Source: Candidatus Sulfotelmatobacter sp.
GTDB lineage: Bacteria > Acidobacteriota > Terriglobia > Terriglobales > Acidobacteriaceae
NCBI GenBank assembly: GCA_017883385.1
Contig: JADGNQ010000038.1
Coordinates: 1-39,728 of the forward strand
Reading direction: 5' to 3'
Length of the DNA stretch: 39,728 bases
How positions within the stretch are numbered: position 1 is the stretch's first letter; every line of letters begins with the position of its first letter. A model generated the notes under the pieces. The model was given only the letters and a program-made list of their open reading frames with translations. It was not told where the DNA came from and did not search any database. The position numbers and the translations under genes are program-made. Shown piece after piece: positions 12,760 through 26,260 of this stretch.

Positions 12760-13875
12760 TTATTTCAAATGGAAATCGACCGCAACCTCAATCTGGGTCG
12801 CAACCGGCACCCCATCCTTCGTTCCAGGCTCAAACTTCCAAGTGCTGATCGCGGCGATCGCCTTCTCATCCAACCCTTTCCCAAGTGATGTCACCACTTT
12901 GACATCACGTGTATTGCCGTCGGCGCCGACGATCAGCGAAAGCACACATGTGCCCTGAAATTTGGCCTTGTTTGCCTCATCGGAGTACTCCGGTTCCGGA
13001 TCATAAATCACCCTAGGGGGGCGAATGCCGCCTGGCAGTACGGTGTGATCGGCAGCTTTTTTGTACCAGACTGCCGCTTCGGAGGGATCTTGTGGGACTC
13101 CCAGACCCTTCTCGTAAAGTGATCCGATGTTCCTTTCCGCTTGCGCGTTCCCTTGAACTGCGGCCTTGCGGTACCAGTTCATCGCTTTCGCATAGTCCTG
13201 GCTGACTCCAAGTCCTTGCTCGTAAAGGTGGCCAACGTTCTTCTGCGCCTCGCTGTCTCCGGTATCTGCTGCCCTGGTGTACCAAGCCATTGCTACCGCA
13301 TAACTTTGCTCAACTCCCTGTCCATTCTGGTAAAGCAGGCCGAGGTAGACTTGCGCTTTAACGTTCCCATGCTGGGCAGCCGTCTGGTACCAAGTCGCTG
13401 CCTCTGAATAATCTTGTTTGACTCCGAGCCCGTCGTTGTAGAGGAAACCCATGTTGGTGCTCGCCCTCACGTTCCCTTGTGCAGCCGCGTTGCGATACCA
13501 GGTCATTGCTTCGCCGTAATCTTGTTTAACGCCCCACCCATTTTGATAGAGCCAGCCGATGTTATTTTGAGCTTCGGCATAGCCTCCAATGGCTGCCTTG
13601 CGGAACCAGTTCATTGCCTCCGAGTAGTCCTGCCTTACTCCGAACCCATTCTCGTAGAGCCACCCGATATTGTTCTCAGCCACAGCATTGCCTCGCTCCG
13701 CTGCCTTGCGGAACCAAATCATTGCCGAGGAATAATCCTTCTGGGCCAAATAATCGTTACCGACTCTTGCCTGCGCCTCGGGTGTTGTCGGTTGCGGTGC
13801 GGAGACATTCTGGGCAATGGCGCCAATCGAGAGCAGCGCCGCGGAGACGACTTTAAAGCAATAGCTCTTAGTCAC
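12760..13875 (-). CDS. Sel1-repeat protein with C-terminal TonB domain
   Basis: The 371-residue protein starts with a signal peptide (CFKVVSAALLSIGAIAQNVSA). Seven Sel1-type TPR repeats of 36 residues follow at about residues 33-287. Each has the pattern A-x-x-N-I-G-x-L-Y-x-x-G-x-G-V-x-Q-D-Y-x-x-A-M-x-W-Y-R-K-A-A. The last 85 residues are a TonB C-terminal domain (EYSDEANKAKFQGTCVLSLIV, KAIAAISTWKFEPG). The DNA shows the repeats as near-108-bp units. Sel1 repeats bind proteins. The TonB_C domain here lacks the usual membrane anchor and Pro-rich linker, so it may bind an outer-membrane or cell-envelope partner rather than transmit energy. Confidence 0.88.
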   Translation of the reverse strand: MTKSYCFKVVSAALLSIGAIAQNVSAPQPTTPEAQARVGNDYLAQKDYSSAMIWFRKAAERGNAVAENNIGWLYENGFGVRQDYSEAMNWFRKAAIGGYAEAQNNIGWLYQNGWGVKQDYGEAMTWYRNAAAQGNVRASTNMGFLYNDGLGVKQDYSEAATWYQTAAQHGNVKAQVYLGLLYQNGQGVEQSYAVAMAWYTRAADTGDSEAQKNVGHLYEQGLGVSQDYAKAMNWYRKAAVQGNAQAERNIGSLYEKGLGVPQDPSEAAVWYKKAADHTVLPGGIRPPRVIYDPEPEYSDEANKAKFQGTCVLSLIVGADGNTRDVKVVTSLGKGLDEKAIAAISTWKFEPGTKDGVPVATQIEVAVDFHLK

Positions 13876-22321: not shown

Positions 22322-24556
22322 ATGGCTACAGCCCCTGAGGGTACAAAACCGGCAGTAAAGGTCTTCGTTGCCACCACGGTGATGTTGACCTTCATCTCGT
22401 TCTGGCGCGCCTCTGCCATTGTTCTGTCGGATTTGGCGTCCTCGGCCTATTACGCCGGTGGCGACGCCGAGAAGGTGATCGGCAAGAGCGCCCCCTGGTT
22501 CATTCTGGCAGTCATGCTGTTCAGTTACGCCGTGCGGGCTCTCTATATTGAGTCCAGCAGCATGTTCGTGCGCGGCGGCGTGTACCGCGTGGTTAAAGAG
22601 GCCATGGGCGGAACTCTCGCCAAGTTTTCGGTCTCGGCCCTGCTGTTCGACTACGTCCTCACCGGTCCCATCAGCGCGGTTTCCGCCGGGCAATACCTCG
22701 CCGGGTTCATCAAGGACATTGGGGTTTACCTCCACCGCCCGCTGCAGTTCTCAGACGACCACTTCGCGGCGGGACTGGCGGTCATCATCGTCGTGTACTT
22801 CTGGTGGAAGAATACGCAGGGCATCCACGAGTCCAGCCAGAAGGCGTTGCAGATCATGGCCATCACTACCGTGATGGTGGTGATTCTGCTCATCTGGTGC
22901 ACCATCACGGTCTTGCGCGCGCCGATTCAGTTGCCCCCCAACCCGCTGCACGCGGGCGTGGTTCCGCTGAACAAAGAGTCGCTCGGCTGGCTCAACGGGA
23001 CCTGGTTCAGCCACATTACGTGGATCATCCTTTTCGTCGGTTTCGGCCACTCTGTGCTTGCCATGAGCGGCGAAGAGACTCTGGCCCAGGTCAACCGCGA
23101 AATCGAACACCCCAAGTTGAAGAACCTGGAGAAGACCGGGCTCGTAATCTTCGTGTACAGCCTGCTGTTTACGGGGCTGGTCTCGTTCTTCGCGGTGATG
23201 ATCATTCCGGATAGCGTCCGCCCGGATTACTTTGCCAACCTCATCGGCGGCATTGCCATGTATCTGGCTGGGCCGACTAGCTTGAAACTCCTATTCCACG
23301 GCTTTGTGGTACTGGTGGGCGTGCTGATTCTGGCCGGAGCCCAGAACACTTCGATCGTCGGCGCAAATGGCGTGCTGAACCGCGTGGCCGAAGATGGCGT
23401 GCTCACCAGTTGGTTCCAGAAGCCCCATAACCGGTATGGCACCAGCTATCGCATCATCAATCTGATCGTCAGCATGCAATTGCTGACGATCGTCCTGAGC
23501 CGGGGAGATGTCTACCAGTTGGCGGCGCTCTATGCCTTCGGCGTGATCTGGAGCTTCGCGATGAAGTCGCTGGCTGTGCTCGTACTGCGCTTCACCGAGC
23601 CAGGAAACCGCGAATGGAAAGTCCCCGGCAATCTGCACATCGGCAAGACTGAGATTCCCTTCGGCCTGATGGTCATTTCTGTTGTGCTGCTCACGACTGC
23701 CATCGTTAATCTGTTTACCAAGTCGCAAGCCACAATCGCGGGCATCATTTTCAGCGTGGTCTTTTTCACGATCTTCACCGTCTCTGAGCGCCACGTCGCC
23801 AGGGAGCGCCACGGCAGACCCGAACAACTCGACCAATTCCGGGTTTACGGTAATCAGGAACTCGGCAGCGGAGCCATGGGAGTCCGCCCCGGCAATATCC
23901 TGGTAGCGGTGCGCGATCCCCGCAATCTCTATTACTTGCGGCACGTGCTCGGCCACACCCATACGGGCAAGCAGGATGTCGTGGTCATGAGCGCCCGCCT
24001 GTATCATCGCGAGCACAGTTTCAGTGGCAGCACGGTTTTTGAAGCGAGCCAGGTGTTCGACCACTACGAGCAGGAACTATTCACGGCGGCGGTTGCGGTG
24101 GCCGAAAAAGAGGGCAAGCCGATCTCGTTGCTGGTTGTCCCCGCGACCGACGTGTTCGAAGCCATCATGGTGACGGCGCAGCGGCTCGATTCCAGCCGCG
24201 TGATCTGCGGACTCTCTAACAAGCTGACGTCCGACGAACAAGCCAAGCTTACCGGAGACGCCTGGGAGCGCCTGCCCGAGCCGCGGCCACGCCTCGCAAT
24301 GGAGGTCTGCGCTCCGGATGGAACTGTGCGCGAATACGCCCTCGGCCCACACACGCCCCGCATGCGCCCGCAGGATGTCGAACTCATGCACAAGCTCTGG
24401 CTCGAAATTACCGCCGATCCCAAATTCGCCGGAGCGCACCACTACCACATCGTGGCCCTGGCTCTGGAGGAATTGAAGCGCGAGTTAACCACCCACGAGC
24501 GCGCGCAGCTCCTGCAGAAGCTGCACGATGAAATGAACCCTCCCAACCCGCTATGA
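22322..24556 (+). CDS. APC-superfamily amino-acid permease with C-terminal USP-like domain
   Basis: The 744-residue protein has about twelve hydrophobic segments in residues 20-490. They include an APC-type start (WRASAIVLSDLASSAYYAGGDAEKV), FGHSVLAMSGEETLAQVNREI and LAGAQNTSIVGANGVLNRVAEDG. Residues about 520-744 are soluble and begin RPGNILVAVRDPRNLYYL, then DVVVMSARL and PISLLVVPATDVFEAI. This pattern fits a universal-stress/Rossmann-like sensor domain, as seen in some APC transporters. The domain may sense nucleotides or redox state; this is inference. The substrate is not clear. The AhpD-like gene follows after 25 bp with a strong ribosome site, so the two are likely cotranscribed. Confidence 0.85.
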   Translation: MATAPEGTKPAVKVFVATTVMLTFISFWRASAIVLSDLASSAYYAGGDAEKVIGKSAPWFILAVMLFSYAVRALYIESSSMFVRGGVYRVVKEAMGGTLAKFSVSALLFDYVLTGPISAVSAGQYLAGFIKDIGVYLHRPLQFSDDHFAAGLAVIIVVYFWWKNTQGIHESSQKALQIMAITTVMVVILLIWCTITVLRAPIQLPPNPLHAGVVPLNKESLGWLNGTWFSHITWIILFVGFGHSVLAMSGEETLAQVNREIEHPKLKNLEKTGLVIFVYSLLFTGLVSFFAVMIIPDSVRPDYFANLIGGIAMYLAGPTSLKLLFHGFVVLVGVLILAGAQNTSIVGANGVLNRVAEDGVLTSWFQKPHNRYGTSYRIINLIVSMQLLTIVLSRGDVYQLAALYAFGVIWSFAMKSLAVLVLRFTEPGNREWKVPGNLHIGKTEIPFGLMVISVVLLTTAIVNLFTKSQATIAGIIFSVVFFTIFTVSERHVARERHGRPEQLDQFRVYGNQELGSGAMGVRPGNILVAVRDPRNLYYLRHVLGHTHTGKQDVVVMSARLYHREHSFSGSTVFEASQVFDHYEQELFTAAVAVAEKEGKPISLLVVPATDVFEAIMVTAQRLDSSRVICGLSNKLTSDEQAKLTGDAWERLPEPRPRLAMEVCAPDGTVREYALGPHTPRMRPQDVELMHKLWLEITADPKFAGAHHYHIVALALEELKRELTTHERAQLLQKLHDEMNPPNPL

Positions 24557-24570
24557 TCAGCATCTAGCTA

Positions 24571-24577
24571 AAGGAGA
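24571..24577 (+). promoter_or_regulatory. Strong ribosome binding site of the AhpD-like gene
   Basis: AAGGAGA is spaced five bases (from the G of GGAG) to the ATG at 24582. This site serves the reading frame that contains the in-frame TGA. There is no comparable site before any start downstream of the TGA (nearest GTG at 24855). Confidence 0.85.
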
Positions 24578-24581
24578 CTCT

Positions 24582-25172
24582 ATGGCGCGCATTCCCGGCG
24601 CTCCCCGCAATCAGGGCGGCCCGATTCGACGGCTGTTTGTAGGGGTTGTTTATTTTCTGACCCAGCGCAGACTGGGCCGGGTCATCATGCCCATTCAGGT
24701 GACCGCACATCACCCAAGAATCTTTTGGGGATATCTCCAGATGGAGCAGTCGCAGATGGGAGCCAAGCTTGTTGACCACAAGCTGAAGGGATTGGCGGAG
24801 CTCCGCGTTGCGACCCTCGTCGGGTGCCCGTTTTGAATTGACATAGGCTCTGCCGTGGGCAGGGCGGGCGGCATCTCGACCGAACAAATCGCTAACCTGG
24901 CTCACTACCGCACAGATTTCAACTTTTCGGAACTGGAGAGACTCGTGCTGGAATATGCCGACAGCATGACCCGGACTCCAGTCGAAGTCTCCGATGCGCT
25001 GTGTGCCCGGCTGCGTGAGAAATTCAGCGAAGCCGAATTGGTGGAACTCACATCGGCGATCGCATGGGAGAACTATCGGGCCCGCTTCGATCATGCCTTC
25101 GGGATGGAAGCAGAGAGTTTCAGCGAAGGGGCGGTCTGCGCGCTGCCGGTTCGGGTGGGGTCACAATCGTGA
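24582..25172 (+). CDS. AhpD/CMD-family protein, candidate selenoprotein (in-frame TGA at 24834-24836)
   Basis: Read through the TGA, this is one 196-residue protein of the carboxymuconolactone decarboxylase/AhpD family. Residues before the stop are LKGLAELRVATLVGCPF, and after it IDIGSAVGRAGGIS. Family members normally have C-x-x-C here, so the TGA replaces the second cysteine (Cys82-Pro-Phe-U85). The frame stays open for 112 more codons with family-like helices (FSELERLVLEYADSMTRTPVEV, LTSAIAWENYRARFDHAFGME). An 8-bp hairpin lies directly downstream at SECIS distance. The alternative is a nonsense mutation of a cysteine codon, giving a pseudogene; the undamaged downstream half and the hairpin argue against it. 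AhpD-like proteins reduce peroxidase or peroxide via this motif. Annotation pipelines will call it two ORFs. Confidence 0.8.
24847..24865 (+). promoter_or_regulatory. Candidate bacterial SECIS hairpin
   Basis: GCTCTGCC at 24847-24854 pairs fully with GGCAGGGC at 24858-24865 (one T-G wobble), closing a GTG loop at 24855-24857. The loop begins 18 bases after the TGA, and G is the first loop base, as in known bacterial SECIS elements. The hairpin lies inside the coding sequence, as bacterial SECIS do. Confidence 0.65.
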
Positions 25173-25189: not shown

Positions 25190-26098
25190 TTACTTCTTCA
25201 GCACGTTCTCGAGCGATGCCCGCAGATCGCTGAAGCGGAAGGGGTAACCACTGGAGATCAACTTGGTGGGCTCGACGCGCTGGCTGGCCAGAAGCAGTTC
25301 GTCCGCCATCTGGCCAAAGGCCAGCCTCGCCGCGAAGGCGGGCATGGGAAAAATTGCAGGCCGGGAGAGCACGGAAGCCAGCGTCTTAGTGAAGTCCGCA
25401 TTGGTCACAGGTTTCGGCGCGACCACGTTCACCGGCCCGGACAGCAAGTCGGTCCGCAAGATGTGATGAATGGCGCCGGCAACGTCCTGCACGTCAATCC
25501 AACTCATCCATTGGCGGCCGTTGCCCACTCTGCCGCCAACGCCCATCTTGAAGGCGGGCAGCATCTTCTGCAGCGCGCCTCCTGTTGAGCCAATGACGAT
25601 GCCAATCCGCATCCGAACTGTCCGAATTCCGGCGGCAGCTGCGGATTCGGTGGCGACTTCCCAGTCCCGAGCAAGATCCGCCGCGAATCCGGTGCCGAAC
25701 GAGCTCTCCTCTTTCAGGACTTCGTCTCCGCGATTCCCGTAGTAGCCAATCGCCGAGGCACAGAGAAAGATCGCAGGCTTGATCTTCGCCTGCGCCAATG
25801 CCTGCGCCAGGTTGCGGGTGGCCGGGATCCGGCTGTCGCGAATTCTAGCTTTTTTGGCTGCCGTCCAGCGCCCGACGACGCTTTCCCCTGCCAGGTGGAT
25901 GACAGCATCGAAGCCTGAAACTGCATCGGGAAAGATGGCTTGGGATGGGTCCCATGGGATCTGCTCTTCATCGTCCCGGGCGCGAGACGGAGCACCCGCG
26001 CGCACTAACCGCACAACCTGGGCCCCACCTGCCTTGAGCGAGGGCACAAGCACGGAACCGACAAGACCTGACGCACCGCTTACCAGCACACGCGCCAT
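25190..26098 (-). CDS. TIGR01777-family NAD(P)-dependent epimerase-like protein
   Basis: The start at ATG 26098 gives 302 residues beginning MARVLVSGASGLVGSVLV, placing the Rossmann GxxGxxG loop right at the N-terminus; a start at 26113 adds five residues. Typical elements follow: FDAVIHLAGESVVGRWTAAKKARIRDSR, then CASAIGYYGNRGDE (the active-site Tyr region) and the closing VLSRPAIFPMPAFAARLAFGQMADELLLASQRV. The family, of SDR-extended type (E. coli YfcH, plant SULA relatives), has no firm substrate. The gene converges on the AhpD-like gene 17 bp away and diverges from rel. Confidence 0.9.
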   Translation of the reverse strand: MARVLVSGASGLVGSVLVPSLKAGGAQVVRLVRAGAPSRARDDEEQIPWDPSQAIFPDAVSGFDAVIHLAGESVVGRWTAAKKARIRDSRIPATRNLAQALAQAKIKPAIFLCASAIGYYGNRGDEVLKEESSFGTGFAADLARDWEVATESAAAAGIRTVRMRIGIVIGSTGGALQKMLPAFKMGVGGRVGNGRQWMSWIDVQDVAGAIHHILRTDLLSGPVNVVAPKPVTNADFTKTLASVLSRPAIFPMPAFAARLAFGQMADELLLASQRVEPTKLISSGYPFRFSDLRASLENVLKK

Positions 26099-26260
26099 GC
26101 GAAGACTGACCATCTTTGGTCACTGTAGCAGCTTGCAGCGTCGGCTCACCAATCTGCGGCGAATTCGACGGATTCAAAACGTCTGAACCAGCCGTCACGA
26201 TGCAAAGGCGGCGTCTCTCGTGTTCGATATCTGGCTGCAGGGAAACGCCTTAGCTTCGGT

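Follow-up and report, generated by a model that had tools for sequence, protein, structure and literature searches.

A candidate selenoprotein of the CMD/AhpD fold in Candidatus Sulfotelmatobacter sp. (Acidobacteriota)

The window, by which we mean the whole stretch of 39,728 nucleotides analysed here, carries a gene that very probably encodes an oxidoreductase of the CMD/AhpD fold in which the TGA at codon 85 is read as selenocysteine (Sec, U). The selenoprotein interpretation of the initial annotation is supported by the conservation of this TGA among relatives, by a covarying SECIS hairpin downstream of it and by the presence of selA, selB and selD in the source genome, a draft of 6.8 Mb in 446 contigs.

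Reading frame and gene context

The frame opens with the ATG at 24582, contains a lone in-frame TGA at 24834-24836, which is codon 85, and runs to the next stop at 25170-25172, such that the read-through product has 196 residues. As had been proposed, the two adjacent open frames make one protein when the frame is read directly. The TGA occupies the place of the second cysteine in a C-x-x-C motif, giving GCPF-U-IDIGSA (G-C82-P-F-U85-I-D) in the read-through product. The features considered here are the following:

22322..24556, + strand: amino-acid permease (PF13520, by Pfam), ending 25 nt upstream of the selenoprotein gene
24570..24576, + strand: Shine-Dalgarno-like site AAAGGAG, read directly in the sequence
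24582..25172, + strand: candidate selenoprotein gene, CMD/AhpD-like, 196 residues with U85 (frame, Pfam, orthologues, model)
24825..24827, + strand: Cys82 codon, first residue of the C-x-x-U motif (Cys in 65/65 aligned rows)
24834..24836, + strand: TGA, candidate selenocysteine U85 (TGA in 13/13 genus orthologues and in 71 of the best 80 of 260 wide-scan loci)
24847..24865, + strand: predicted bacterial SECIS hairpin, stem 24847-24854 with 24858-24865, apical loop GTG at 24855-24857
25190..26113, - strand: convergent NAD-dependent epimerase/DUF1731 gene (PF01370 and PF08338), a neighbour only

The ribosome site claimed at the outset is thus found before the ATG, and purine-rich sites 5' of the start codon were also seen in the 12 relatives compared. 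The upstream permease was likewise confirmed, and it is possibly on one transcript with the selenoprotein gene. Among the best 80 loci of the wide scan described below, 11 of which belong to the genus, the permease lies upstream in 7 and the epimerase nearby in 7, all of them genus loci, so that these neighbours give little clue to function and a conserved operon function was set aside. An ORF on the opposite strand (24564-25094), without a Pfam match, was also set aside.

Conservation of the TGA codon among relatives

A protein search was run on 150 genomes including the source genome, 45 of them of the same genus. All 12 orthologues from other genomes of the genus (71-84% identity) have TGA at this codon, that is 13/13 with our own, although the gene is patchy in the sense that a close orthologue is missing from 32 of the 45 genus genomes. 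Of the 29 relatives that were read through (L009-L037), 27 carry TGA at the motif, one carries Cys (L036) and one is a decayed copy (L030). In a phylum sample of 396 genomes just 27, the source genome included, have a match at E <= 1e-15; among 28 phylum matches other than our own, 16 contain TGA only, 10 contain no stop and 2 contain another stop, the position of the TGA having been read for part of them and some chance hits to the motif having been left uncounted.

We then consider a wider scan, in which one genome per species was taken from 84,980 species and the best 80 of 260 relatives were kept. These 80 loci comprise 71 with TGA, 3 with TGC, 2 with TGT, one with Ser (L185) and 3 that are disrupted, apparently by a frameshift; the 71 include L208, despite two TAA codons within its frame. 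The ranking was by likeness to the Sec query and one of the two patterns included GCPF, so that 71/80 overstates the share of Sec forms, and at least 11 of the loci apparently come from the same assemblies as in the 150-genome search, such that the two counts are not independent. By record label the TGA forms occur in at least eight phyla, among them Acidobacteriota, Myxococcota, Planctomycetota, Binatota, Rokuibacteriota, Gemmatimonadota, Actinomycetota and Chloroflexota. The claim that the TGA stands in for the second motif cysteine holds, with TGA or Cys at this position in most of the readable relatives. In an unrooted tree the five Cys rows are explained by three changes, and the tree leaves the direction of the change between Sec and Cys undecided.

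When the genus orthologues are compared in 78 pairs, pN/pS comes to 0.24 on the 5' side of the TGA and to 0.18 on its 3' side. These ratios indicate that purifying selection acts on the frame downstream of the TGA and that the 3' half is a working gene.

Two kinds of variant motif were met along the way. A Rokubacterial relative (L185:2501-3061) reads CPCS, with Ser at the Sec position and Cys one residue earlier, and five other loci (L035, L113, L116, L117 and L119) read CEYU, CQYU or CDYU and retain a His four residues after U. The latter motifs suggest that at least two CMD subfamilies use Sec and that the AhpD-type His is present in part of them.

The downstream hairpin

The hairpin was proposed as a perfect 8-bp stem with a GTG loop beginning 18 bases after the TGA. 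The 8-bp stem, the GTG loop and the G as first loop base stand; however, 18 nt is the distance to the loop, the stem already beginning at 24847, 10 nt 3' of the TGA, and one of the eight pairs is U-G. Its folding energy of -14.1 kcal/mol corresponds to a z-score of -1.26, and 20 of 200 shuffled sequences fold as well. The stability of the hairpin alone is therefore unremarkable, and the decisive support is comparative. The bSECIS model sets a loop of 3-9 nt, an upper stem of 4-16 bp, a G in the first two loop positions, a distance of 16-37 nt from UGA to loop and an MFE <= -7.5 (PMC13188914); the candidate has a 3-nt GTG loop, a stem of 8 bp, a spacing of 18 nt and -14.1 kcal/mol, all within these published constraints.

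The comparative evidence was drawn from an alignment of 71 of the 72 TGA rows, one identical row having been dropped. Over the 71 sequences 93.2% of the cells are paired, against 84.9% in shuffles and 39 to 49% in slid controls. Double-changed cells number 31 against 7.5 in shuffles, and neither this number nor the covariation score is reached by any of 500 shuffles; two pairs show a double change, a figure that 88 of 500 shuffles reach, and there are 7 further pair types, a figure that 23 of 500 reach, and kinship among the rows can inflate such covariation counts. Pair 15-31, in which the last base of codon 89 faces the opening base of codon 95, is CG in 33 rows, GC in 15, UA in 12 and AU in one. 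At pair 18-28, U-A is replaced by G-C in three rows (L169, L192 and L201), where the Ser codon changes from TCT to TCG alongside a change of the Arg codon from AGR to CGR, and the pairing is kept. Within the genus the stem codons hardly vary: Ser90 is TCT, Ala91 is GCC and Arg94 is AGR in 13/13 orthologues, the choice between AGG and AGA being the sole variation. The same genus pairs also differ less at silent sites in codons 90-107 (pS 0.48) than over codons 86-190 (pS 0.67). The SECIS, for which a check against a bacterial model had been suggested, thus fits the published model and has a covarying stem.

Selenocysteine machinery of the source genome

The gene selA is found on contig C102 with 551 bits over its two pieces. 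The gene selB is split across the ends of two contigs, C168 and C67, that have 99 bases in common, and scores 337.6 bits plus a C-terminal piece. Contig C117 carries selD (L088, 360.5 bits), which has its own in-frame TGA at AAGUASKLSP, a position that we take to be the usual Sec site of SelD; selD is likely a second selenoprotein of this genome. Beside the end piece of selB on C67 lies an ordinary Cys-type CMD/AhpD-like protein with the motif CHYC (L007:524-1063, minus strand).

The initial annotation had pointed to selA, selB, selC and selD as the genes to look for; selA, selB and selD are present, but selC did not turn up in the assembly, which is fragmented. There, tRNA-Sec was sought with the Rfam model, by BLAST with a relative's gene, with an anticodon-arm pattern allowing one mismatch and with a genus-specific covariance model, none of which recovered it. 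Nor was it recovered by way of the genome's counterparts of the genes that flank it in relatives, including the peroxiredoxin that flanks it in genome G004. The covariance-model searches scored 98 to 150 first-look candidates per genome (for example 150 of 1046), so that a tRNA-Sec may have been missed. ARAGORN assigns the weaker model matches of the source genome to ordinary or other tRNAs, for which reason only matches above 60 bits were counted as tRNA-Sec. Across 30 genomes, 27 have a match that passes the Rfam cut-off (47 bits) and 24 have one over 60 bits, those below 60 bits being G000, G002, G017, G036, G097 and G103; 10 of the 13 genus genomes that bear the orthologue also exceed 60 bits. 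The UCA anticodon was confirmed by ARAGORN in 20/20 of the relatives' loci checked. In G036, selA and a TGA-bearing selD are present, yet no tRNA-Sec match exceeds 60 bits.

The surroundings of tRNA-Sec in relatives bear on its absence here. In G004 a phage-type integrase gene lies beside it (L093:5916-7279), and in G035 there are two copies 12 kb apart (L094:1651-1748 and 13718-13815), the second at a contig end, such that tRNA-Sec genes look like insertion sites in these relatives. One contig of G002 starts with 20 bases that resemble the 5' end of tRNA-Sec (E 0.003). The insertions and this contig start suggest that tRNA-Sec breaks assemblies, and an assembly gap is the reason that we prefer for its absence from the source assembly.

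Contig C134 of the source genome carries an unusual tRNA of 89 nt (L039:1502-1590), called tRNA-Gly(GCC) by ARAGORN, with an 8-bp acceptor stem, a 4-bp T-stem and a long variable arm. It is like the 8/4 allo-tRNAs described in Acidobacteria (PMC7609411). A tRNA-Gly(GCC) of ordinary length is also present (L040).

Fold and active site

The product matches PF02627 (CMD) with 29.8 bits against a cut-off of 23. An AlphaFold model built from 65 sequences, with Cys in place of Sec, reached a pLDDT of 92.6. The predicted CMD domain consists of helices only, with C82 and U85 placed where helix 83-95 begins; the model matches PDB structures of PA0269, Bmp8 and other AhpD-like proteins. The Pfam score and the predicted all-helical fold place the protein in the CMD/AhpD-like superfamily. 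Of 77 readable rows the alignment used here keeps 65; four were removed for further stops and eight as close relatives. G81, C82, residue 85, D87, E155, L156, E163 and R166 are invariant in the 65 rows, and Cys stands at position 186 in 60 rows, two others having a gap there.

According to a study of AhpD-like proteins (PMC3141380), two Cys and a His are invariant, together with a Glu, the proton-relay His lying four residues C-terminal to the second Cys (His55/His137) and the relay Glu twelve residues N-terminal to the first (Glu36/Glu118). The His position is Gly89 in our protein, and over the 65 rows it is Gly in 55, His in 4, Asn in 4, Ser in one and Thr in one. The Glu position is Gly70, with Glu in 9 of the 65 rows. 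By this alignment the relay Glu and His are not conserved in the family. The five Cys forms also lack the relay His (0/5) and three of them lack the relay Glu, so that loss of the relay is not tied to Sec alone.

Relation to known proteins

The protein shares its fold with PA0269 of Pseudomonas aeruginosa (TM 0.88 by target length, rmsd 1.5) and has its two redox residues in the same place; unlike PA0269, it has Sec instead of the second Cys, and the relay Glu and His are not conserved. With the debrominase Bmp8 (6ohi, 6ohj; function taken from the PDB titles), the CMD fold is common over most of the length at 16% identity, the likeness seen here being one of fold. No paper dealing with both Bmp8 and debrominase came up in the literature searched.

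AhpD-like CxxU selenoproteins appear in surveys of 2005, 2006 and 2008 and in reviews of 2022 and 2026 (PMC1088965, PMC1794560, PMC2398784, PMC9312934, PMC13188914), and one survey lists Acidobacteria among the phyla some of whose members have selenoproteins (PMC1794560). The earlier view that the family is not wholly new was therefore well founded: such proteins have been known since 2005, and the acidobacterial gene is a further member. Those of the Sargasso Sea and GOS surveys (COG2128/YciW, pfam02627) have the same CMD domain, a C-x-x-U motif and a SECIS after the UGA (PMC1088965, PMC2398784, PMC9312934, PMC13188914), and the window protein may belong to the same subfamily; these surveys are largely marine, and in their available parts no acidobacterial member is named. 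In the literature searched, whose coverage is partial, we found no acidobacterial or Sulfotelmatobacter report of this protein.

The best NCBIfam match is NF053654 (YciW-related (seleno)protein, 'GroundWater_YciW'), over residues 19-175 with E 5.1e-37. All 65 aligned members match this family, and the window protein scores 127.3 bits against its curated cut-off of 310. Eight other members score 90.9 to 245.3 bits, and all nine proteins scored individually stay below the curated NCBIfam cut-offs. As the window protein obtains 127 bits while the more distant L034 (CVFUQDINAA) obtains 245.3, it seems to stand in a sister subfamily to NF053654.

Discussion

Several readings compete with that of a selenoprotein. 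An ordinary Cys AhpD-like gene could have suffered a nonsense mutation, and interrupted copies of the family do occur elsewhere (L030, L155, L199, L202 and L208); nevertheless, the same TGA in 13/13 genus orthologues and in 71 of the best 80 of 260 wide-scan loci, the purifying selection apparent in the 3' half and the conserved, covarying hairpin make a pseudogene extremely improbable. The draft state of the genome, in its 446 contigs, would leave room for a sequencing or assembly error concealing a true TGC or TGT, to which we give a negligible chance, as TGA stands at the same codon in assemblies of apparently different projects. The codon might also be read in another way, by near-cognate Trp or Cys insertion or by a Cys-loaded selC-like tRNA, and the residue would then not be Sec. 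The missing tRNA-Sec of the source assembly speaks for such decoding, and selC-like tRNA-Cys, some with a UCA anticodon, is described for some other phyla (PMC7609411). We nonetheless consider it very unlikely, since selA, selB and selD are present, selD bears its own TGA, tRNA-Sec has the UCA anticodon in all 20 of the relatives' loci checked, and TGA is the terminator of 8 of the 13 larger window ORFs, the selenoprotein gene included, which argues against a general reassignment.

A further question concerns the substrate of the same selenoprotein, which could be other than a peroxide, with reductive dehalogenation as in Bmp8 or with disulfide reduction. The profile match to Bmp8 (E 4.7e-17), the structural match over 169 columns and the lack of conservation at the AhpD Glu and His positions are consistent with such a substrate, but the closest structures are of the PA0269 type, for which weak peroxidase activity is reported (PMC3141380), and no dehalogenation-linked Pfam family occurs in the 13 window ORFs scanned or in the opposite-strand ORF. 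We regard a non-peroxide substrate as possible, though rather unlikely.

Our best guess for the Sec-containing protein is a selenol peroxidase or reductase. In the mechanism that we propose from sequence and conservation, UGA 85 would be decoded as Sec by SelB and Sec-tRNA(Sec), guided by the downstream hairpin. The selenolate of U85 would attack an oxidised substrate, which is most likely a peroxide or else an electrophile such as a disulfide or an organohalide, and the selenenyl intermediate would be resolved by C82 as an Se-S bond, which a thiol donor would reduce; the nearly invariant C186 may pass electrons on. Sec has a low pKa. Because the Glu and His positions are not conserved, this low pKa, together with the invariant D87, E155, E163 and R166, may take over the role of the relay. 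More tentatively still, the family could be a distinct, mostly Sec-using CMD subfamily (G-C-P-F-U-[ILMV]-D-I-G-S-A, with a C-terminal Cys186) that occurs in eight or more phyla and would do without the Glu/His relay, rely on the selenolate and possibly act on a non-peroxide substrate.

Standard gene calling would split this gene or label it a pseudogene. Read correctly, it extends the redox gene repertoire of soil Acidobacteria and of other phyla by a selenoprotein that is widespread though patchily distributed and, as the proton-relay residues of AhpD are missing here, raises the testable question of whether selenium can replace a proton relay in the CMD fold.
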